From a virus, in IMG/VR virus record IMGVR_UViG_3300042465_007039, positions 1-64,000 of that record: a stretch of 64,000 nt of DNA, one strand, 5' to 3'. The first letter of the stretch is position 1, and every line of letters begins with the position of its first letter. Shown one piece after another: positions 10,111-33,337 of this stretch. Position numbers and translations under genes: made by a program. The notes under the pieces are model-generated. The model worked only from the letters and a program-made list of their open reading frames with translations. It was not told the DNA's origin and did not search any database.

Positions 10111-10470
10111 ATGAGATACAGAGAAATTCTCGAAGCTTGTTGGACTGGTTACCGCCAGGCTGGCATGAAGAAAAAAGGCGATCGCATGGTGCCCAATTGT
10201 GTTCCTGTGAACGAAGCCGAACTGGAAGAAGATCTACGCAAGTGGTTCAAACAAAAATGGGTGCGGTTTGGACCTGATGGCAAGATCCGTGGTGACTGTG
10301 CCCGTGGTTCAGAATCTGAAGGCAAGCCCAAGTGTTTGCCACAGGCCAAGGCACATGCACTGGGCAAAAAAGGTCGTGCAAGTGCAGCAGCCAGAAAACG
10401 CCGCAAAGATCCTGATGCCAATCGTTCAGGCCCAGCAATAAATGTTAGTACCAAAGGAAAAAGCAAATGA
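10111..10470 (+). CDS. Cysteine-containing modular protein with capsid-targeting-like N-terminus
   Basis: 119 residues from the ATG at 10111. It begins MRYREILEAC; I-L-E followed by A fits a T4 gp21-type prohead protease site. The rest is two short basic modules: one with CWTGYRQAGMKKKG and NCVP, the other with DCARGSESEGKPKCLP followed by a very basic stretch (GKKGRASAAARKRRKDP). Four or five cysteines in short motifs could bind zinc or form cross-links. A packaged DNA-binding internal protein is a reasonable guess. It overlaps the next gene by 4 nt. Confidence 0.75.
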   Translation: MRYREILEACWTGYRQAGMKKKGDRMVPNCVPVNEAELEEDLRKWFKQKWVRFGPDGKIRGDCARGSESEGKPKCLPQAKAHALGKKGRASAAARKRRKDPDANRSGPAINVSTKGKSK

Positions 10471-11588
10471 TAATATCTGATCTACTGACTGAATCTGCTG
10501 GTCGTTGTCCTGAGTGCGGAGGCCCTGCTTTCTCAGATTTAATACTGGCCGAAAAGAAAGATGCCTGCTATCACAAGGTCAAGGCTAGTGCAAAAGTATG
10601 GCCCAGTGCTTATGCATCAGGTCGCCTGGTACAGTGTCGCAAAAAAGGTGCTGCCAACTATGGCAACAAGTCAGAAGGTGTGGCGGAGGACGAAGAGGTC
10701 TACCTCGGAGGAATGTCCAGGGCAGAAAGAGAAAGCCGCTTCAGACGTAGAAAACAAGATCTATTACAAGATTATGCTTTGTTGGGTAAGCTAACAACAG
10801 ACATGATTCGTGCAATTAATAACGAAGTGTTTTTGACAAAAGAACAAATAATTGATTTTTACAAGCAACAAATCGAAGATCCTGATTTAACAGCATTAGA
10901 ATATGCTCATGACAATAATATTCCAAGTAGCGGATTGTTAAAAGGTGTTTTACGCTACCTGGTCCAGCGCGGTTTTAGTATGCTTGACATTCGTAAGTTA
11001 ATGGGAAAAGCAGCTGAACAAAAAAAGAAAGATACGCTGGCATTGCCGCCACCTGGACCTGGTGAAGGTGTAGCGGAGGTCACAGGCGATGAAAAATTTA
11101 ACAAAGCAATGAGACGAACCACTGGCGACATCACTTCAGACGATGCTGCCGAAATGTGGCCAACACAAGAATTTGAACCAATTAATCTTGATTCATCATA
11201 CTTGCCAATGATGGAGAAATACAAGGCAAAATTATTTCCGTTAGCTTATGAATACTGGACTGACGGTGACAATGCAGATGAATTAAGAGCACTAGGTTGG
11301 GAGCCTGATTACGGCGACGACTATGTTATGGTGGTGCTGTCTGGCATTGGACATGATGGTCATATCCAATATGACAAATATGATTTTGATGCCGAAGGTG
11401 AAAATGTGACGGAAGCAGCAGACAACACTGCCTTTCGACAAGGCTACGAACGAGGCATACGATACTATCGTCGCGGCCCACAAAATCCCTACCAACCCAG
11501 AACTCTAGAGTTTACAGACTACAATGATGGCTATCAGATGGGCGAAGCTGACAGTTATGACAAATATGACACCTCAAGCATGGATTAA
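10467..11588 (+). CDS. Modular cysteine-rich protein with two internal GVAE sites
   Basis: 373 residues starting MIISDLLTES, another L-x-E-S end like a capsid-targeting peptide. Next come a small zinc-ribbon-like CPECGG and a basic module with CYHKVKASAKVWPSAYASG and C-R-K-K-G-A-A-N-Y-G. A GVAE motif at 71-74 separates these from a charged helical region (about 75-200). A second GVAE (201-204) precedes an acidic Tyr/Asp-rich C-terminal region. Base use in about 10740-11030 is more A+T-rich than its flanks, suggesting a separately acquired module. If GVAE is cut by the prohead protease, three products would result. Function unknown. Confidence 0.75.
   Translation: MIISDLLTESAGRCPECGGPAFSDLILAEKKDACYHKVKASAKVWPSAYASGRLVQCRKKGAANYGNKSEGVAEDEEVYLGGMSRAERESRFRRRKQDLLQDYALLGKLTTDMIRAINNEVFLTKEQIIDFYKQQIEDPDLTALEYAHDNNIPSSGLLKGVLRYLVQRGFSMLDIRKLMGKAAEQKKKDTLALPPPGPGEGVAEVTGDEKFNKAMRRTTGDITSDDAAEMWPTQEFEPINLDSSYLPMMEKYKAKLFPLAYEYWTDGDNADELRALGWEPDYGDDYVMVVLSGIGHDGHIQYDKYDFDAEGENVTEAADNTAFRQGYERGIRYYRRGPQNPYQPRTLEFTDYNDGYQMGEADSYDKYDTSSMD
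10677..10688 (+). repeat. Dispersed GVAE-coding repeat, copy 1
   Basis: GGTGTGGCGGAG in codon phase encodes G-V-A-E at residues 71-74 of the modular protein. It is one of four complete copies of GGTGTRGCGGAR in the window, all in phase and at apparent module borders, all preceded by AA. Confidence 0.6.
11067..11078 (+). repeat. Dispersed GVAE-coding repeat, copy 2
   Basis: GGTGTAGCGGAG encodes residues 201-204 of the same protein, after a proline-rich linker (LPPPGPGE) and before an acidic module. Confidence 0.6.
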
Positions 11589-17176: not shown

Positions 17177-17229
17177 CATGGCTGCTAACACACAGGGTGG
17201 TCAGTCTAAAATTAATGGAGCACACTAAA

Positions 17230-17856
17230 ATGTCAAACAATTTTGGGTTAACATTGTCACAACTGGAAGAAATGGTTCCGGGAAATCCTCATATTGATAG
17301 TTGGTACGAAGCACTGGAGCAGATACTGCCAGACTACGATATCAACACTCCGCAGAGAATTGCAGCATTTGTTGCTCAATGCGCTCATGAAAGCGGTGGA
17401 TTCAAATTTATCAAAGAAAATTTAAATTATAGGGCAGTCAGTCTGCGCAAGACTTTTGCCAAGTATTTTCCCACAGATGAATTGGCACAGCAGTATGCAG
17501 GCAAAGGCGAAATGATTGCCAATAGAGTTTATGCCAATCGCATGGGCAACGGCAATGAAGCCAGTGGCGATGGTTATCGTTATTGTGGTCGAGGCCTTAT
17601 TCAGTTGACTGGCAAAGACAACTACACTCGCTATGCCGAAAGCACAGAACAGTCAGTGGAAGAAGCCAGCGAACATTTATTAACCTTCGAAGGCTGTGTA
17701 CAAAGTGCTGCATGGTTCTGGGAAGCCAACAACTTGAATCAATGGGCCGACAAGGGTGACATTGTCACCTTGACCAAACGAATCAATGGCGGCACCATTG
17801 GGCTCGAAGATCGTATCAAACACTATAATCATGCTTTACATGTGCTAGGATTATAA
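17230..17856 (+). CDS. Endolysin, glycoside hydrolase family 19 (chitinase/lysozyme-like)
   Basis: 208 residues from the ATG at 17230 (GGAG upstream). The GH19 pattern is clear: RIAAFVAQCAHESGGF carries the catalytic Glu, followed by YCGRGLIQLTGKDNYTRYAE, the hallmark G-R-G-x-I-Q-L-T-G, and a C-terminal W-F-W-E and R-I-N-G-G. Phage GH19 endolysins cut the peptidoglycan glycan strand. There is no signal peptide, so release needs the holin encoded 0.8 kb downstream. It leads a cassette of endolysin, inner spanin, outer spanin and holin. Confidence 0.93.
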   Translation: MSNNFGLTLSQLEEMVPGNPHIDSWYEALEQILPDYDINTPQRIAAFVAQCAHESGGFKFIKENLNYRAVSLRKTFAKYFPTDELAQQYAGKGEMIANRVYANRMGNGNEASGDGYRYCGRGLIQLTGKDNYTRYAESTEQSVEEASEHLLTFEGCVQSAAWFWEANNLNQWADKGDIVTLTKRINGGTIGLEDRIKHYNHALHVLGL

Positions 17857-18340: not shown

Positions 18341-18606
18341 AATATCTATTATTACTGTCAGTAGTGTTGTTACAAGCCTGTGGCACAACAGTACCAGTCT
18401 CTGCAAAATTTCCCGACAGTCCAGGCGCAATTGCAACACAAACATGCCCCGCATTGCAGCAACTATCACAGGATCCCAAACTAAGCGAAGTATCTAAAAC
18501 AATCACCATCAACTATACCACCTACTATGAATGTGCAATCAAAGTTGATGCCTGGAATGATTGGTACAAAATACAAAAAAATATTTTTGAAAAGGCAGCA
18601 AAATGA
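18337..18606 (+). CDS. Outer-membrane lipoprotein spanin-like protein (o-spanin)
   Basis: 89 residues with a lipoprotein signal ending in LLQAC (lipobox, Cys about residue 15); a mature chain of about 75 residues would be anchored to the outer membrane. It starts in an ATGA overlap with the i-spanin candidate. Mature length, pairing and location between endolysin and holin support an o-spanin. Two further cysteines could form disulphides. Confidence 0.75.
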   Translation: MKYLLLLSVVLLQACGTTVPVSAKFPDSPGAIATQTCPALQQLSQDPKLSEVSKTITINYTTYYECAIKVDAWNDWYKIQKNIFEKAAK

Positions 18607-19100
18607 GTAAAGAAACAAAAAAAGAAGACTGGATGAATTCAAAATGGCGTCCAGCCATGGGTTGGATGTACATGGTTGTCTGTATGATGGACATGGTGAT
18701 ATTTCCCATACTATGGAGTCTACTACAGACCGTAACTCACACACCTATCACTCAGTGGAATCCGTTGACACTGCAAGGCGCTGGACTATTTCACCTGGCC
18801 ATGGGTGCAGTGTTAGGTGTTGCTGCGTATGGTCGTACGCAAGAAAAACTTGGCGGAGCCAACAATGGCGGAATACAAACACCAACAACAGGATTCTCCA
18901 GCGGGCCTTCAACATTTAGCCAACCGTCGGCAGGAGGCTTCGGTTCTCCAGCACCAAGTAGCTTTGCTGGTAGTTCAGGATTTGGAACGGCAACGCCTGC
19001 ATCAAGTTTTACCCCAGCACCAAGTTGGGGGACAACCCCAACAGCAACAACAGCCAGCGGTAAGAAAGTTGTACCAGAGTTTAATCAGCCAGAAATTTAA
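18603..19100 (+). CDS. Holin (3-TM type) with long low-complexity tail
   Basis: 165 residues. The first 80 carry KWRPAMGWMYMVVCMMDMVIFPILW, a second hydrophobic stretch and GAGLFHLAMGAVLGVAAYGRTQEK, the pattern of three-TM phage holins. The holin makes the membrane lesions that free the endolysin. Residues about 85-165 are an unusual Gly/Ser/Pro/Thr/Phe-rich tail, absent from typical holins, that would lie in the cytoplasm or periplasm. It overlaps the o-spanin by 4 nt. Confidence 0.82.
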   Translation: MSKETKKEDWMNSKWRPAMGWMYMVVCMMDMVIFPILWSLLQTVTHTPITQWNPLTLQGAGLFHLAMGAVLGVAAYGRTQEKLGGANNGGIQTPTTGFSSGPSTFSQPSAGGFGSPAPSSFAGSSGFGTATPASSFTPAPSWGTTPTATTASGKKVVPEFNQPEI

Positions 19101-24114: not shown

Positions 24115-26412
24115 ATGAAACAATTAGTCATCATGCCTGGCGGATTTCACCCTTTTCACGCAGGCCATCTAGCACTTTATCAATCTGCTGTTCAGGCTTT
24201 TCCTGGCGCTGATGTCAAAGTAGCTGCTACCAACGACACATCAACTCGTCCATTCCCTTTTGCACTCAAAGAAAAACTAGCACAACTGGCAGGAGTCGCC
24301 CCGGGCAACTTTTATCAAGTCAAAAGTCCATTTCGTGCTGAAGAGATTACCAAGAGTTACAATCCTGCTACCACACAGTTGATCTTTGTTCGCAGTGAAA
24401 AAGATGCCAACAAACTACCGCAAGCAGGAGGGGTCAAACGTGATGGCGCACCTGCATATCTGCAGCCCATCAGTGATCAACTGGCACCAATGACTCAGCA
24501 TGCCTACATGGTGTACTTGCCCACAGTGGAGTTTGGTCCAGGCATGACCAGTGCCACAGAAATACGCTCTGCCTGGCCCACACTCACAGATCGCCGCAAA
24601 ACAGCCTTGGTCATGAGCTTGTACCCCAAAACACAACGCAACCCCAAACTGGCTGCTGTTGTGGTCAAAATGCTGGATACTGCCATTGGCACACAAGAAG
24701 TAGATGAAAGATCGCTGAAAGAATTTGCTCCCGGGTCAGGCGGTGATGACGACATCGGCGATGATCCCTACAAGTATCCCAAGCCAGAGCGGTACCGTCG
24801 CAGTGCGGATTACTTTGGCCAATTTGAAGCAGATCATTTTGATCGTGAAGCCTTTGATGATGCCACTGGTGAGTTCAAAGGCTACTGGGGGCGTACACCA
24901 ATTGCTTATTTCAAGTTTGACAACCCAGCACGAACTGGCAGCGATGATCCGGGCCGAGGCTGGTACTACGAACCACAGTCAAACAACAGCGGTGACGACA
25001 CCAGTGCCGAACCTGCTGATGATAACGCTGAGCAACGCAAGCAACAAGAGTTGGGCATGATCCGTCAGTTTTTGAAATCTGGCAATCGACCAAATCCAGA
25101 CAGTCAAATTGGTCGATTGATGAAAAAACATGGCATAGAGGAAGATCTAAGCCGCAGAGGATTCTTACGAGGCCTAGGCGCTGCGGCTGCTGGTGCGGTC
25201 GGTGTTGGCGCTGCTGGTCCGGCTCAAGCACGATCAACTGATGCGTCACGAAAAGAAGATGCTGAGGCCTTGGCATTACTGGCCAAAGGTATGACTCCTG
25301 AACAAGTTGCTAAAAAATTAGGAGTTGCTGGACCAAATCACGGGCAGACCCATCATATGGGTGGTCGGTGGGCTTCAATCAATCGGGCAGCAGCACAGCT
25401 CCGACGACAACGAGGCCTAAACGAATTTGCAATGGGCGGCGGTGACGATGACGGCAACGATGGCTTCAGTGATGACACACTTAAACAGCTGGCAGCACAG
25501 TGGTACAATGGCGACGAAGATCCCAGAGTAGAACAAACACTGGCAGCAGCAGGTTGGGAAATTGGTCAAGATGAAGGCTATGATGATACACCGGGTGTGT
25601 TTGTGGTGCAGGCCGGAGACATCAACGGCAACAGCTATATCAGTTGGCCTGCCCACGAACTAGAAGGCCTGGCCGAAGCAAGCAAGCAAGGTGTGGCGGA
25701 AAACTTTGCTGATGGTAAAAACCCACAAGACAAAGGTGATGCCAAGCGTCACGGTATCAACACCAAGGCCAGTGTAAGCAGTCTACGCAAAACTGCCAAG
25801 CAAGGTGGACGCAAAGGACAACTGGCACACTGGTTGGCCAACATGAAAGCTGGCCGAGCCAAGAACGAGGACATAACAGAAGATAATGACTGCCCTCCGG
25901 CTACACAGGATATCTCACTCAATCTCAAGAACAGACAAAAAGCCATCAACGAATACGGTTACGGTCCGCTCAACCCAGACTTGCCCAACACCAAGTTCTG
26001 GATGAAAAAGGTTGATGAGTGGAATCTAGACAGCATGGAAGAAGCACAAAGCAGCTTGTGCGGTAATTGTGCAGCATTTGACATACGACAAGAAACTCTA
26101 GACTGTATTGCACAAGGTATTGATAGTGATAGTCCCGAAGACGCCGAAGGTGTGATTGATGCTGGCGACTTGGGCTATTGCAAGTTCCTAAAGTTCAAGT
26201 GTGCAAGCCGCAGAACATGTGATGCTTGGGTAACCGGTGGACCACTAGAGGACAAACCAGTTGACGAAAATCAAGGTTGGGCAGCAACATACCAAGAAGC
26301 AGACTCTGACTATATTGAAGAAAAGTGGAGCGCAAAATACAAGAGCAGTATCAATTGTGCCAATCCCAAAGGATTTAGTCAAAAAGCTCACTGCGCTGGT
26401 CGTAAAAAATAG
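24115..26412 (+). CDS. Modular protein: nucleotidyltransferase domain, twin-arginine-like segment, cysteine-rich modules
   Basis: 765 residues. Residues 1-200 are a cytidylyltransferase-like nucleotidyltransferase opening with MPGGFHPFHAGHLALYQ (HxGH site). An acidic linker follows. At 346-372 is a twin-arginine-like leader (SRRGFLRGLG, Ala/Gly hydrophobic run, ending AQA). A GVAE site stands at 526-529. After that come a basic module (KRHGINTKASVSSLRKTAKQ...), a cysteine module with SLCGNCAAFDIR and CKFLKFKCASRRTCDAW, and a final KWSAKYKSSINC...AHCAGRKK module. It reads as a chain of independent parts joined at cleavable borders. Probably packaged or virion-associated; the nucleotidyl substrate is unknown. 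Confidence 0.85.
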   Translation: MKQLVIMPGGFHPFHAGHLALYQSAVQAFPGADVKVAATNDTSTRPFPFALKEKLAQLAGVAPGNFYQVKSPFRAEEITKSYNPATTQLIFVRSEKDANKLPQAGGVKRDGAPAYLQPISDQLAPMTQHAYMVYLPTVEFGPGMTSATEIRSAWPTLTDRRKTALVMSLYPKTQRNPKLAAVVVKMLDTAIGTQEVDERSLKEFAPGSGGDDDIGDDPYKYPKPERYRRSADYFGQFEADHFDREAFDDATGEFKGYWGRTPIAYFKFDNPARTGSDDPGRGWYYEPQSNNSGDDTSAEPADDNAEQRKQQELGMIRQFLKSGNRPNPDSQIGRLMKKHGIEEDLSRRGFLRGLGAAAAGAVGVGAAGPAQARSTDASRKEDAEALALLAKGMTPEQVAKKLGVAGPNHGQTHHMGGRWASINRAAAQLRRQRGLNEFAMGGGDDDGNDGFSDDTLKQLAAQWYNGDEDPRVEQTLAAAGWEIGQDEGYDDTPGVFVVQAGDINGNSYISWPAHELEGLAEASKQGVAENFADGKNPQDKGDAKRHGINTKASVSSLRKTAKQGGRKGQLAHWLANMKAGRAKNEDITEDNDCPPATQDISLNLKNRQKAINEYGYGPLNPDLPNTKFWMKKVDEWNLDSMEEAQSSLCGNCAAFDIRQETLDCIAQGIDSDSPEDAEGVIDAGDLGYCKFLKFKCASRRTCDAWVTGGPLEDKPVDENQGWAATYQEADSDYIEEKWSAKYKSSINCANPKGFSQKAHCAGRKK
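25690..25701 (+). repeat. Dispersed GVAE-coding repeat, copy 3
   Basis: GGTGTGGCGGAA encodes residues 526-529 in the context SKQGVAE-N, between an acidic region and a basic module. The SKQGVAE heptapeptide recurs at 32870. Confidence 0.65.
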
Positions 26413-27407: not shown

Positions 27408-30400
27408 ATGAACATCGAAGAACTAGACGCCTACAATCTTGACGACGCAGTGAAATTTCACGACCACTTGAATCCCCGACTCTGGGACTCTCGTGAGCAG
27501 TTGCGTCCCGAAGTGCGTGTCAAGTTGTTAGAAATAGCAGCTGACTTTGAAGAATTCCTGGGACTCAACGATGTGTCTGTGCAAGACATCACCATTTCAG
27601 GTTCCAATGCTGCCTACAGCTACACCAATCACTCAGACATTGATCTGCACCTGGTTGTGGCCATGCCCCAGGGTTCCAGTGCTGATGTTTATCGTGAACT
27701 GTTTGACGCCAAGAAATATCAATACAACAACCTGCACAACATTCGCATAGGCGCTGCTGATGTGGAACTGTATGTGCAGGACGCAGATCAACCGCATCAC
27801 TCACAGGGCATCTACAGTGTAAGAAACAACCAGTGGATCAGTGTGCCGCGTCGTAGATCAGCTGATGTCAACGACTCTGCTGTACAACGCAAGTACCAAG
27901 ATCTAGGCACTCGTATTGAAAACATTCTAAGCAGCAGTGATCATGAACAGTTGGCTCGCATGATGACCAAGATCAAGACCATGCGAGCCGCAGGACTAGA
28001 GCGTGAAGGTGAGTTTGGTGTGGACAACATTGTGTTCAAACTGTTGCGCAACAATGGCCTGATCAAACGCTTGGTTGATGCTCGCAGTGCTGCACGTGAT
28101 GCTGAACTCAGCCTCAATGAACGCAAACGAAAGAAAAAGTCCAGCCGTGTGCGATATGGCTACGGTGGCTACTGGACTCCAGGCTACAACTTTGGTGGCA
28201 CAGAACTAGGCGGAGACTCTGGTGGCGGAGATGGTGGAGGTGGCGAAAGTGTGCGTGAAGCTTCTACTCCCGACGGGGTCAGCGCCAGTACCAAGATGTT
28301 CCTGGAACAAGACTCTGTCAGCACCACAGACATTGTGCAAGATTTTGTGAGCTTTTGTGTGGGCGAACTTGGTATCCAGCAGCAGCCTCAACTGCGACTG
28401 CGTCGTGACCCTGCCTGGAGCCAACGCAATCACAGCTTTGGACAGTTTGATCCTGCCTCCAACAAACTCAATGTCAGCATGGCCAACCGTCATGTGATGG
28501 ATATCCTGCGCACAGTGGCACACGAGATGGTACACTACCACCAACAAGAACAACAAGACTTGCCGCCCAACGCAGGCGCTACTGGCAGCAAATACGAAAA
28601 CGAAGCCAATGCCAGAGCTGGCGAACTCATGAGAAACTACGGGCAACAGCATCCTGAACTGTTTGAACCAGGTGCTGTGGCCGAAGGATGGCGTAAACAA
28701 CAGCAGAACGAAAGCTCGGGCTATATTCCCACCAAGAAAGAACGCAACGATCCCAGATTCAGCATGGCTCTAAGCCCCGATGTGCAGCCAGGTGCCACAG
28801 GCAAAAATGCTAACAAACTGGCATTGAAAACCAATACACAAGGTCAGCCAGGCCTGCTGATGAAAACTGTTAACCTGCGTGAGTCCACGAAAACTAACTT
28901 GTCAGAAATTGATCGCAGAGGTGTGCTCAAGGCCATTGGTGCAGGTGCAGTGGCCACAGCGGTGCCAGGGGTAGCACAAGCAGGACCATTTGTGGATGTT
29001 GCTGCGTTAGGAAAATCCAATCCCGAGCAGGCTCAAAAAGTATGGACGCCCAGGTACCAAGAACTCACCACACGATGCCAAAACATCATGCGCCGATTGA
29101 TTGCAGCAGCAGGGCCTAAATGGGCGCCACTGTTGAAAGGCACCACCATTCGTGTGGTCTCAAGTGACAATTATGCACAGGCCAGTGCAATTTCGCGAAT
29201 GATTGCTATTGATCTTTCGGTGTTCTGGGATGCTCCGGACGCTGCCTTGGCATTTACCATAGCACATGAGCTGGGACATATTGCCCTGGAACATGGTGCC
29301 GGCACTGATGACGAGTCAGCAGACTACAAAACTCAATTGCGAGTGGCTGCACTGTATCGCCAAGGCGAACTGGATGCAGACGAGTTTGCGGTGCGCATCT
29401 GCAAGACACTGGGCTACAACAAGGCCGAAGTGTTCAAATTCATTGCCCAGAACGAAGCAGAATTGCAAATGTTTGATCTACTGACACAATCACCCACCAG
29501 CACTCACCCCAGCCAAAAGACTCGTATTGACCGAGCTAGAATGAATGGGTTTCAGTTGAGTCGTGGCGGTATTGAACAAATGAATGTGTTGAAGCAACAC
29601 CTGGCTGAGCATGACACAGTACACAGTGATCTGATTGAAAATCTACAACAAGAATTTGCACTGTTTGAAGAACAGGACCTGTTTGAAATCAACATGAGTC
29701 CCACAAATCTAAAAAAACTAGCAGCACAAACAGGCGCCAGGGCCGGCATGGAATTTGAGATGATTGTACCCGGTATCGAAGGTGGGGAAGACGCTGAACA
29801 AGAACCTGACTACGACGCCGACGAAAATGTCATGAGCATTGAGGATGCAGCGCAGTTCTTTTTTGACGGTGACTTCAACGGTCGAAGAGACATTCAACGC
29901 CTGCGTGAAAGCATGAGCGAAGATTATCAGACTTGGCTGGGTGACGCCTGGATGGAGCATTTTGAAACCTACAAAACTACCATTGTGTTTAGATTCGGCA
30001 AAGAAAATTGGGAAGAAGCACAAATTGCCGAAATCATGGGCCTGGACGAAGCTGAAACCGAAGCATTAGAAACTCGCGGTGCGACTCCCGAAGATTACAT
30101 GGACGCTGCTGAAAAAGTCATTGCTGATGGATTAGATCCCTGGCTGAATGATGCGCAGGAAGATGCACAAGAAGAATATTACGATGAAGATCACGAAGAT
30201 GATTGGTTGGCCAGTGAAGGTATTCGTTCAATGAGCGATGTTTCAAGTCAGTACAATATCATGTGGCCATATTGGAGCAGTGGTAGCAATGAAGGTGCTG
30301 GTATTGAATCCGTTGCTGATGAATTCCGTGAGGCCATTGGTCGCAAAGTAAACTGGTCTGATAGTTACCATGGTGGCAAACGAGAGCCCAACACTTATGT

Positions 30401-31811
30401 GGTCGAGCCAGACGGCAGCCTGATTCCCAGTGACAGCGATGACGCAGGCCTGGAGTTTGTGAGCCCTCCCTTGCCCATTGACGAAATGATCAGTGATCTA
30501 AACAAGGTCAAGGCCTGGGCTGATCAACGAGGCTGCTATACCAGTAAAGCTGCCAAAACAGGCCTACACATCAATGTGAGTGTGCCAGGCTTTGACAATG
30601 ACAAACTGGACTATGTCAAGCTGGCGCTGTTGCTGGGCGACGAGTATGTGCTGAATCAATTTGGTCGACTTGGCAACAGCTATGCAAACAGCGCCATGGG
30701 CATAATCAAAGAGCGAATTGCTCAACGGCCCGAAGATGCTGCTGCCATGTTGCAAAAAATGAAAACAGGTCTGGGTGAGCTGGCCAGCAAAGTTGTACAC
30801 AGCGGCACAACCAGTAAATTTACCAGTATCAACACCAAGGATGGATATATTGAATTTCGTAGTCCCGGTGGTGATTGGTTGGGTGACAATTTTGACAAGA
30901 TTGAAACCACTCTGATGAGATTTGTGGTGGCACTGGATGCTGCCATGGATCCTGCAAAGTATCGTGATGAGTACTTGAAGAAACTGTACACTGTGCTCAA
31001 GCCCAAAGATCAGAATGATACCTTGAGTTATTTTGCTAAATTTGCTGCCGGTGAATTGCCCAAGGCTGCACTAAAGAGTTTTATCAAACAAGCACAACTG
31101 GAGCGCAAAGGCAAAAAGAGCAGTGGTGACTCTGCATATACTGCAATCCCCAGCAGTGGAAATCAGAAATACGAAATACAACGCACAGCCAATAATGAAA
31201 TTGTGGGCACATTCAACGCAGACAGCGATACTGATGCCAATGCAGTTGCTCGCCAATGGATGGCAGACAATGGACTACAGCGAGTTGATTTTAGATTAAA
31301 TCGTGCAACAGGACAAGAACGAGCCGAACAGCGAGCCGGAGTCAGCAACTACAAAATCTATCAAATTTCTGATGGTAGAACAGTGGGCACATTCTATGCT
31401 GCCGATCAGGCTCAAGCTGACTCTGAATTCACTGACTGGTTGATGAGTCCCGAAGCCGGTGGCAGAGACGACTTTAGATACGCACCAATTGACACCCCAA
31501 TTCAAGGTCTTGCCGCCAGCACCCCGCGACCGCGGTCTGACATCATTGACATCGAGCCAGATGTAGAGCAGAACTTTGTGCCTGGATCGACCCTGGATCT
31601 GCAACGACAACGACAAGCAGCACAGCAATCTGCTGCTGGAACATTTAGAGGCACCTGGGCAATCAAGGACAGTCAAGGCAACACACTACACACCTTCGGC
31701 GGAATCGGCAATGCACAAGCAGATGCCAACAGAGTTGCAGCAGGTTGGCTGGCCCGTGCAGGATATCAAGACGGCCTTGAAGTTGCGGTTGTTCCTGTGA
31801 TGGAGCCGTAA
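27408..31811 (+). CDS. Giant multidomain protein: nucleotidyltransferase, two metallopeptidases, twin-arginine-like leader, amidoligase, triple C-terminal repeat
   Basis: 1467 residues from the ATG at 27408. (1) Pol-beta-type nucleotidyltransferase, about 40-240, with SGSNAAYSYTNHSDIDLHL. (2) Gly-rich linker. (3) Zincin, about 305-430, with HEMVH (372-376) and a later N-E-A-N-A. (4) Twin-arginine-like DRRGVLKAIG (502-511) with an Ala-rich run ending AQA. (5) M48-like peptidase with HELGH (620-624) and ELDADEFA. (6) Amidoligase-like region, about 770-1225: MEFEM, GLEFVSPPLP, GLHINVSV, EFRSPGGDW. (7) Three copies of a roughly 45-residue domain, from about 1255. FEPGAVAE after domain 3 resembles the GVAE sites. 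I infer a polyprotein-like packaged cargo; its maturation is untested. Confidence 0.88.
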   Translation: MNIEELDAYNLDDAVKFHDHLNPRLWDSREQLRPEVRVKLLEIAADFEEFLGLNDVSVQDITISGSNAAYSYTNHSDIDLHLVVAMPQGSSADVYRELFDAKKYQYNNLHNIRIGAADVELYVQDADQPHHSQGIYSVRNNQWISVPRRRSADVNDSAVQRKYQDLGTRIENILSSSDHEQLARMMTKIKTMRAAGLEREGEFGVDNIVFKLLRNNGLIKRLVDARSAARDAELSLNERKRKKKSSRVRYGYGGYWTPGYNFGGTELGGDSGGGDGGGGESVREASTPDGVSASTKMFLEQDSVSTTDIVQDFVSFCVGELGIQQQPQLRLRRDPAWSQRNHSFGQFDPASNKLNVSMANRHVMDILRTVAHEMVHYHQQEQQDLPPNAGATGSKYENEANARAGELMRNYGQQHPELFEPGAVAEGWRKQQQNESSGYIPTKKERNDPRFSMALSPDVQPGATGKNANKLALKTNTQGQPGLLMKTVNLRESTKTNLSEIDRRGVLKAIGAGAVATAVPGVAQAGPFVDVAALGKSNPEQAQKVWTPRYQELTTRCQNIMRRLIAAAGPKWAPLLKGTTIRVVSSDNYAQASAISRMIAIDLSVFWDAPDAALAFTIAHELGHIALEHGAGTDDESADYKTQLRVAALYRQGELDADEFAVRICKTLGYNKAEVFKFIAQNEAELQMFDLLTQSPTSTHPSQKTRIDRARMNGFQLSRGGIEQMNVLKQHLAEHDTVHSDLIENLQQEFALFEEQDLFEINMSPTNLKKLAAQTGARAGMEFEMIVPGIEGGEDAEQEPDYDADENVMSIEDAAQFFFDGDFNGRRDIQRLRESMSEDYQTWLGDAWMEHFETYKTTIVFRFGKENWEEAQIAEIMGLDEAETEALETRGATPEDYMDAAEKVIADGLDPWLNDAQEDAQEEYYDEDHEDDWLASEGIRSMSDVSSQYNIMWPYWSSGSNEGAGIESVADEFREAIGRKVNWSDSYHGGKREPNTYVVEPDGSLIPSDSDDAGLEFVSPPLPIDEMISDLNKVKAWADQRGCYTSKAAKTGLHINVSVPGFDNDKLDYVKLALLLGDEYVLNQFGRLGNSYANSAMGIIKERIAQRPEDAAAMLQKMKTGLGELASKVVHSGTTSKFTSINTKDGYIEFRSPGGDWLGDNFDKIETTLMRFVVALDAAMDPAKYRDEYLKKLYTVLKPKDQNDTLSYFAKFAAGELPKAALKSFIKQAQLERKGKKSSGDSAYTAIPSSGNQKYEIQRTANNEIVGTFNADSDTDANAVARQWMADNGLQRVDFRLNRATGQERAEQRAGVSNYKIYQISDGRTVGTFYAADQAQADSEFTDWLMSPEAGGRDDFRYAPIDTPIQGLAASTPRPRSDIIDIEPDVEQNFVPGSTLDLQRQRQAAQQSAAGTFRGTWAIKDSQGNTLHTFGGIGNAQADANRVAAGWLARAGYQDGLEVAVVPVMEP

Positions 31812-33337
31812 TGAGAGCAAAAGAATTCATCATTGTCGAATACAGAGATAGACTGTTGCAATATGTAAAGAGTTTGTTACCTAACTACCCAGAGTATGTT
31901 CTTAAAGATTGGTTAGTACCCAACAAAGGCAACTTTAGCAATTTGCCAGACACAGAACTCAAAAATGGCATAATGGAAAAATTAAAAGGGGCAGGACTTA
32001 CTCCTAACACCAAATGGCAACTTGTTCCTGACATGAAGTTTACTATGGATATGTTTGAGCCAATGACCACTAAACGATTGATAGGTCGTGCTGGTGGAAA
32101 CAGTGATATGGGCTTAGATGTACCACGAGACAAAGAAAGACACGCAACTCAAGCAGCATTAGCACAACAACAAGGTGGTGTGCGTAAAGAACCAGTGCTA
32201 TTAATAAAAACAGACAAGGGCTACGAATTGTTAGAAGGGTGGCATAGAACTATACAACACTTTGCCAAGTATCCAGATGGCTATACAGGTCCTGCTTATG
32301 TGGCAGTGGCTCAAGGTCAGCTGAGTCTAGCAGAAGGTGCAACAGTAACACGAATTGATTCTAAACCTATCACAGATTTTTCGTCTAGTCTCAAAGCATA
32401 CAAGCATACAGATGATTGGAGTCAGAGTGGTTTAGATACAGGTGACGATAGTTATTGGAAAAATAAAAATCTCAAAACTAACACTACCAAAGGATTGTTT
32501 GCTGGTGATCCACGTAGAACAGCACTATACGCCACAGGCAATGCACATGAAACACGCTATGTAGAGTTTACGCAAAACGGCCAACCTATTGTTTATTTTG
32601 ACCAAAAAGATTTGCCAGCAATGCGTAGTCGTAAAACTTACTTGACTGTGTTTGATGCTAGCGATTTCAGACAATTACCAACAGGTGAATGGTTTAGTGA
32701 AAATCCTAGTAAACCTATCAAGCAGGTGCCCATTGGCGATCCATTCAAATATATTGCTAGTCAAGGGTGGATAGTCCGTGTTACTGATGATTTAGACAAA
32801 GTATTCAAACAAGTAAAAAACATGCACAAAGCAGGTAAAATTGCTCAATATGGTGCAGAGGGTATGAATGAAAGTAAACAAGGTGTAGCGGAAGACCTAA
32901 CTGAAGTAGTCGATCTTGACACAGCATTTCCACTGAAGTGGGATCAACAGTTTGCGGCACAGGGCGAGATTCATGCAGCAGCAACAGATGCTGACGGCAG
33001 AGAAATTGGCATATCGTTTACCCCAGCAGGCAACGGTGAAATAACCGATGTGGCATTTACTCGTGGCGGCACACATGAGATGACTGGCCGGGGAGATGCA
33101 GGTCGAGTAATGGCCACTGTGATCAATGCCATCAACCTCTATACAAAAAAATATAAACCACCATATCTAGCGTTCAGTGCCAAGTCAGGTGGTGGTAGAT
33201 CCGGTGCATACACAGCAATGATTCGGCGCCATGCACAAGGATATGAACTGTTGCCCACCGATAAATACCCAGCTGCCTTGAACAACTATCTTGAGTTCAT
33301 TGGCACAGATCAACCATTTGTATTGGCCCGAACATGA
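31811..33337 (+). CDS. Modular protein with MRAKEF N-terminus, GWHR (ParB/Srx-like) region and GVAE site
   Basis: 508 residues beginning MRAKEFIIVEY, very like T4 internal-protein targeting peptides (cut expected after I-V-E). Residues about 95-165 contain EPVLLIKTDKGYELLEGWHRT, a ParB/sulfiredoxin-like GxHR motif. About 175-345 is an unrecognised domain (GLFAGDPRRTALYATG). NESKQGVAE at 353-361 leads to a C-terminal domain with SAKSGGGRSGAYTAMIRRHA. Base composition of the first 1 kb is more A+T-rich than the C-terminal part, which suggests modules of different origin. Starts at a TAATG junction with the giant gene. Probably packaged with it; biochemical role unknown. Confidence 0.82.
   Translation: MRAKEFIIVEYRDRLLQYVKSLLPNYPEYVLKDWLVPNKGNFSNLPDTELKNGIMEKLKGAGLTPNTKWQLVPDMKFTMDMFEPMTTKRLIGRAGGNSDMGLDVPRDKERHATQAALAQQQGGVRKEPVLLIKTDKGYELLEGWHRTIQHFAKYPDGYTGPAYVAVAQGQLSLAEGATVTRIDSKPITDFSSSLKAYKHTDDWSQSGLDTGDDSYWKNKNLKTNTTKGLFAGDPRRTALYATGNAHETRYVEFTQNGQPIVYFDQKDLPAMRSRKTYLTVFDASDFRQLPTGEWFSENPSKPIKQVPIGDPFKYIASQGWIVRVTDDLDKVFKQVKNMHKAGKIAQYGAEGMNESKQGVAEDLTEVVDLDTAFPLKWDQQFAAQGEIHAAATDADGREIGISFTPAGNGEITDVAFTRGGTHEMTGRGDAGRVMATVINAINLYTKKYKPPYLAFSAKSGGGRSGAYTAMIRRHAQGYELLPTDKYPAALNNYLEFIGTDQPFVLART
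32882..32893 (+). repeat. Dispersed GVAE-coding repeat, copy 4
   Basis: GGTGTAGCGGAA encodes residues 358-361 within NESKQGVAED. The seven residues SKQGVAE match copy 3, although the surrounding proteins are otherwise unrelated. Confidence 0.65.

Follow-up and report, generated by a model that had tools for sequence, protein, structure and literature searches.

Within the 64,000-nt window analysed here, which belongs to a 71,947-base virus record from IMG/VR, an open reading frame at 24115–26412 on the plus strand encodes P0001, a modular protein of 765 amino acids whose relatives match it module by module. P0001 carries a twin-arginine (Tat) leader in the middle of its chain, directly behind a predicted prohead-protease site. 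We consider it about two-thirds probable that a large T4-type phage uses P0001 as a cargo protein built from modules, whose Tat signal is exposed by prohead proteolysis and whose payload is re-exported once ejected. The signal, the site, the coupling of the two, the modularity, a bias among the payloads and the protease family in relatives can all be read from the sequences.

The Tat leader in the middle of P0001

The first-pass annotation of this DNA had proposed a twin-arginine-like leader inside P0001, which our analysis bears out. Residues 346–372 (SRRGFLRGLGAAAAGAVGVGAAGPAQA, nt 25150–25230) contain the twin arginine, an uncharged hydrophobic region (h-region) and an A-x-A motif; with the two residues before them they form the leader as delimited here (DLSRRGFLRGLGAAAAGAVGVGAAGPAQA, residues 344–372, 25144–25230). 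The NCBIfam model TIGR01409 scores the whole protein at 17.3 bits against a curated cut-off of 16.7 and a fragment at 20.0 bits, while the Pfam model TAT_signal (PF10518) gives 15.9 bits, under its gathering score of 22.7. The combination of RR-x-phi-phi, an uncharged 16-mer and A-x-A was reproduced in none of 20,000 shuffles of P0001. Among the six-frame RR matches listed for the whole 64 kb, an A/G-rich uncharged run with A-x-A occurs only in P0001 and in its giant sister protein P0002. The P0001 leader had been called the better of the two, in agreement with the scores for the whole proteins (17.3 vs 13.5 bits, TIGR01409). The A-Q-A at residues 370–372 (25222–25230) is the predicted signal-peptidase site, and A-x-A is retained in relatives. 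The leader as such is also kept in relatives, and close copies differ mainly by synonymous codons (8:2, 7:1 and 7:1). In AlphaFold models its pLDDT (predicted local confidence) is below 50 in both P0001 and P0002, the P0001 model being poor throughout (mean 50). Judged from sequence and model, segment 344–372 is a Tat leader outside any folded core; transport itself is predicted.

In the uncut chain the leader is internal (residue 346), and only a cut at the predicted site I341-E342-E343 (25135–25143) would place it at an N-terminus. This site lies within GIEED (residues 340–344) and fits [I/L/V]-x-E. It closes the preceding module (residues 204–343, 24724–25143), for which seven proteins were aligned (alignment A5). 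In all of them this module ends in G[I/M/L]xE with the G and the E invariant, whatever comes next, which may be a leader of the P0001 type, in L117 another kind of Tat leader, or in L011 and L037 unrelated modules. Because differing modules follow GxxE, the leader is best described as a removable cassette that starts right behind the conserved Glu. The concern that the segment might be unconserved in homologues or belong to a folded core is thereby eased: it is missing in L011 and L037, but as a GxxE-bordered cassette, and it is modelled as unstructured.

Coupling of Tat leaders to the candidate cleavage site

The link between leaders and sites was assessed with the scan pattern RRGFL[KR]G[LM]G, which reads downstream from RR only and leaves the upstream residues unused. 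It returned 19 loci representing 15 distinct Tat contexts. Twelve of these 15 have [ILVM]-x-E with its E 3–5 residues before RR, a coincidence with a probability of about 4e-13 if site and leader were independent and the motif occurred at its background rate, although the true significance is lower, as the contexts share cassette descent; the cassette spreads as one unit and the counts are therefore not phylogenetically independent. The site is spelled IDE, LEE, IEE, VDE, IAE or LDE, a variety that argues for selection on the motif. Contexts lacking [ILVM]-x-E are L304, an ordinary N-terminal Tat gene, L296, and L303/L305, which read TKE. The candidate (I)-x-E site noted ahead of the P0001 leader thus recurs just upstream of RR in most contexts, and the mid-chain element, first remarked on in two proteins and present in both, extends across many phages.

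Tat scans with E at −3/−4 built into the pattern were unable to test this link and were set aside; since those earlier patterns already required E, the coupling claim rests on the downstream-only scan. A first count of hydrophobic segments behind the site (31/45) was likewise inflated by loci from E-containing Tat patterns. Searching cultured phages by tblastn with the 35-residue leader and with L103 gave no match, in a search whose low-complexity filter may mask Ala-rich queries. No Tat leader of this kind was found in phage S-CREM2.

Module borders coincide with the motif

Relatives of P0001 are encoded on 72 viral contigs, mostly sharing one stretch each, in varying orders and with varying partners. 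The shared stretches are residues 1–197, 201–434, 434–525, 524–590, 590–715 and 734–765. For modules common at ≥75% identity, 63% of borders lie at most 5 residues from [ILVM]xE, against 18% expected; in proteins selected for the lack of GVAE the figures are 56% and 19%. The controls [ILVM]xD, [ILVM]xK and [ADGST]xE came out close to expectation. The result is sharp at ≥75% identity and merely two-fold with loose matches.

In P0001, the L-K-E at residues 201–203 (24715–24723), an [ILV]xE motif, is a predicted protease site and module border, and the matches of relatives start at residues 199–201. The pair L-A-E (519–521) and V-A-E (527–529; together 25669–25701) is a second such candidate, where relatives' matches begin or stop at 519–529, and I-T-E (587–589, 25873–25881) a third, with match borders at 589–593.

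The QGVAEG joint is conserved as DNA (CAAGGTGTGGCGGAAGGC) in L023, L103 and L112 and in about 114 contexts of the fetched loci with unrelated flanks, and its Ala codon is GCG in 63 of 69 cases against a background of 7.7%. The DNA of this protease site looks as if it were a recombination joint for module shuffling too.

Payloads behind the leader

The sister protein P0002 (27378–31811, plus strand, 1477 residues) repeats the arrangement with an enzyme. It reads L-S-E (residues 508–510, 28899–28907, a predicted protease site by its motif), then the Tat leader IDRRGVLKAIGAGAVATAVPGVAQA (residues 511–535, 28908–28982; TIGR01409 16.2 bits on the fragment and 13.5 on the whole protein), then directly an M48 metallopeptidase (28983–29597, HELGH, Pfam 7e-10). 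The M48 match reaches 39.4 bits against a Pfam gathering score of 20.3 and contains the HExxH of this domain. The AlphaFold model leaves the leader unstructured and starts the M48 fold right after AQA. Foldseek gave partial matches, among them E. coli BepA with a probability of 1.0 but an E-value of 0.037, and bacterial genomes scanned with the M48 alignment yielded remote zincins only.

The annotation had suggested looking for homologues that carry the leader at the N-terminus, and ones with it close to that end do exist. L298 starts with MRASEFIAE followed by DLSRRGFLRGLGAAGATVATGGALA (DLSRRGFLRG..) and continues with LysM (4e-8) and an SLT transglycosylase (3e-6), and L162–L164 start with MRANEFISE followed by AISRRDLLKGVAGAAALGATGLAKA (AISRRDLLKG..) and continue with M48 (2e-8); both have the order of a capsid-targeting start (CTS), a Tat leader and a payload. 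L303 has a Tat leader before LysM and SLT at the end of a 1067-residue chain whose earlier part contains deaminase and ParB-type modules, and L295 has one before M48 on a 524-kb contig. Further payloads of Tat leaders are GH19 (3.6e-16) and TonB_2 (1.3e-18), and a Sec-type signal precedes LysM (1e-10). As far as domain matches can tell, the payloads that Pfam identifies clearly (M48, GH19, LysM with SLT, LysM, TonB C-terminus) are of envelope type.

Lipoprotein-type signals with a lipobox Cys also occur mid-chain directly behind IEE, LEE or IDE (L064 residue 429, L075 residue 467, L123 residue 727); in a relative of P0002, LEE is followed by GIRDKLATAALAACVAGSPGC.

Prohead protease and possible virion association

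The T4 prohead protease gp21 cleaves after L/I-x-E, as part of prohead maturation (PMC9026906), and the predicted cut sites of P0001, including the I-E-E before the leader, are of this type. A Peptidase_S77 gene is present in eight related records, one of which (G001) also encodes both the Tat module and P0002 in closely similar copies. In seven of the eight S77-bearing relatives, the major capsid protein retains LKE before N, LTE before T or IME before S at what we take to be the position where T4 gp23 is cut (placed by eye). One relative has a capsid protein 62–64% identical to those of cultured T4-like giants such as GAP32, CBB and PA5oct. Neither an S77 gene nor a recognisable major capsid protein was found in G013 and G014 (342 and 209 kb), which encode Tat polyproteins; as a capsid protein match is missing too, the region concerned may be absent from these records or have diverged.

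Evidence for a place in the virion comes by homology, through residues 28–246 of P0002 (27459–28115), which are 35% identical to S-CREM2 ORF156 (pairwise E 3e-42). ORF156 and the cytidylyltransferase ORF154 were detected by mass spectrometry in CsCl-purified virions, contamination being possible according to the authors (PMC10665884, Table 3).

The first ten residues of the T4 internal protein IPIII are enough to package a foreign protein, and the T4 internal proteins enter the cytoplasm on ejection (PMC9026906). Of 64 GVAE-type polyproteins, 36 have CTS-like N-termini such as MRASEFITE, MRATEFIAE and MKTNEFLTE; of 506 others, 75 do. Within the window, a 508-residue protein (31811–33337, plus strand) starts with MRAKEFIIVE and a 373-residue protein (10467–11588, plus strand) with MIISDLLTE. 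In L260 (MFIADLFE, then SRIQKIVVVMPGGFHPFH), L272, L274 and others, a CTS-like start is followed by a nucleotidyltransferase module resembling the one in P0001. In S-CREM2, F[FILM]xE within the first 12 residues separates the virion proteins (5 of 6 matches, p 0.003, with the motif tightened post hoc), and broader CTS patterns gave no clear separation of them.

CTS-like leaders (MKDFDSFLEE, MKDLHSFLTE, MKNFSSFLTE and others) are common to L154–L157 and S-CREM2 ORF6, 12, 13, 14, 136 and 154, a virion-associated set of unknown or non-structural role that includes a Cas9-like nuclease and an S-adenosylmethionine hydrolase.

Proposed mechanism and its alternatives

In the sequence of events that we propose, P0001 would be produced as a string of modules linked by [I/L/V]-x-E sites, and a gp21-type (S77) prohead protease would cleave after these glutamates during head maturation. 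The cut behind G-I-E-E would free a fragment starting with DLSRRGFLRGLG, whose new N-terminus is the predicted Tat signal peptide. Ejected with the head contents into the next cell, this fragment would arrive in the cytoplasm, where the host TatABC would recognise the exposed signal and move the folded payload to the periplasm, signal peptidase then cleaving after AQA. As long as the precursor is uncut, and in the producing cell, the signal would be silent; virion maturation would activate it. P0002 would deliver its M48 protease likewise, other phages their GH19, LysM-transglycosylase or TonB-C payloads, and Sec and lipoprotein signals appear to serve this purpose too, though more rarely. The broader proposition, that in large T4-type phages the maturation of virion-packaged polyproteins gives rise to Tat, Sec or lipoprotein signals at new N-termini and that enzymes re-exported by the host machinery reshape the envelope as early as the first minutes of infection, is one towards which we lean slightly.

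Several observations weigh against this proposal. We infer cleavage, packaging, ejection and Tat transport for these proteins, and the common descent of the Tat contexts lowers the weight of their coupling to the site. The source record, a fragment of 71,947 bp, contains no S77 gene. P0001 starts with MKQLVIMPGG and has no N-terminal CTS, nor does P0002, and P0001 is therefore classed not as a CTS internal protein but only as working like one. Its payload is a 65-residue helix-turn-helix-like (HTH-like) module, odd in a periplasm. The Tat segments of L296 and L303 lack a canonical site, and in L165/L166 an M48 domain follows a CTS without Tat. The 76 further polyproteins fetched by the GVAEG DNA joint contain no Tat leader. 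Non-Tat hydrophobic segments behind the site are modestly enriched in a pool not selected for Tat (8/43 vs 2.3 expected); in the joint-selected set they number 2 of 20, with 2.9 expected.

Free exchange of modules among the polyproteins, together with a P0001 payload that has no obvious periplasmic role, would suit a leader that is a captured host fragment, serving as a neutral linker or hydrophobic spacer and never exposed or used. We regard this as unlikely, given that close copies differ mainly by synonymous changes and that the site-to-RR spacing, the RR, the h-region and A-x-A stay constant in very different contexts. Such a spacer would account neither for the envelope-type character of the clear Pfam payloads nor for the full CTS–Tat–enzyme genes L162 and L298.

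The signal could also act in the producing cell, if part of the precursor were processed prior to packaging and the enzyme were exported at a late stage to assist lysis or weaken the envelope, and several payloads are indeed peptidoglycan hydrolases or proteases. What makes this distinctly unlikely is the tie of gp21-type cleavage to prohead maturation (PMC9026906) and the CTS-like starts, which indicate the head. A TonB C-terminus, moreover, is no lysis enzyme. The window phage also has a GH19-like gene (17197–17856) and a three-transmembrane holin (18603–19100) of its own, probable lysis genes, so that the cargo enzymes are unlikely to be its lysis system.

We give little credence to insertion of the leader into the inner membrane during ejection, where it would aid genome or protein entry rather than act as a Tat substrate: a bare anchor needs no twin arginines, A-x-A or enzymatic payloads, all of which are conserved. 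An internal translation start yielding a separate Tat protein directly is very improbable, for although P0001 has an ATG 11 codons upstream of RR and the GTG within GVAE could initiate in some relatives, that ATG has no purine-rich ribosome site, the L047 relative has no Met at this position, and L295 and L301 have no start codon in the 45 codons upstream.

Further modules of P0001

The N-terminal module of P0001 (residues 1–198, 24115–24708, MPGGFHPFHAGH) is nucleotidyltransferase-like, with a match to Pfam CTP_transf_like (E 0.001) slightly below the cut-off. The payload behind the leader (residues 373–437, 25231–25425), which ends in L-N-E and matches HTH_23 at 7e-4, below the gathering score, occurs in the fetched loci solely behind a Tat leader. 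Residues 590–718 (25882–26268) form a Cys-rich module without a Pfam match that is 52% identical to a DSL-LC01 protein. Its relatives carry the name "high potential iron-sulfur protein", for which Pfam gives no support, and the DSL-LC01 relative adjoins capsid maturation protease genes.

The C-terminus (residues 734–765, 26314–26412) consists of IEE and a short basic Cys module (KWSAKYK..NPKGFSQKAHCAGRKK). This tail (KWSAKYKSSINCANPKGFSQKAHCAGRKK) is a detachable C-terminal module in many cultured cyanophages, including S-SM2 gp108, with 63–82% identity. S-SM2 gp109 (L106 4105–6231; T4-GC 119), encoded beside gp17 in this cultured cyanophage, shares several modules and is polyprotein-like.

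Relation to known systems and implications

The best reading of P0001-type cargo proteins is as a variation on the internal proteins of T4 (IPI–IPIII, Alt). They resemble these in their L/I-x-E sites, in the S77 protease of relatives, in the CTS-like starts of many sister proteins and in a cargo expected to reach the host cytoplasm. Descriptions of the T4 proteins present them as single proteins; the chains here join many modules, and once cut as predicted, some of the pieces would have a Tat, Sec or lipoprotein signal at their start. The ejection proteins of phiKZ and SPN3US offer a second parallel, with large heads, packaged proteins and a gp21 relative cutting after Glu, but export signals on their fragments were not found reported in the literature searched. 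The virion-associated non-structural proteins of S-CREM2 (ORF6, 12, 14, 154–156) include the homologue of the P0002 N-terminus, and several begin with CTS-like F[FILM]xE leaders; unlike P0001, they are not long strings with a Tat leader.

Bacterial Tat substrates such as CueO and SufI have an S/D-RR-x-F-L motif, an A/G-rich h-region and A-x-A. The P0001 leader shares the A/G-rich h-region, A-x-A and an RR motif within a few residues of the N-terminus predicted for the mature chain, but lies mid-chain and would be N-terminal only after phage proteolysis. In the open literature searched, which leaves out most subscription journals, no previous description of an export signal on an ejected phage protein came up.

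Injected phage proteins are usually viewed as cytoplasmic actors or as formers of the entry channel. If our proposal is true, a single chain would carry a two-step address, to the capsid first and to the envelope second, and proteases, wall hydrolases and TonB mimics would be in the periplasm before phage gene expression. Their roles might, speculatively, be a block of superinfection, the removal of receptors or the repair of the entry wound. Modular proteins of large phages that are otherwise unreadable would also gain a function, together with a rule for parsing them: to split the chain at [I/L/V]-x-E and to read every piece from its new N-terminus.
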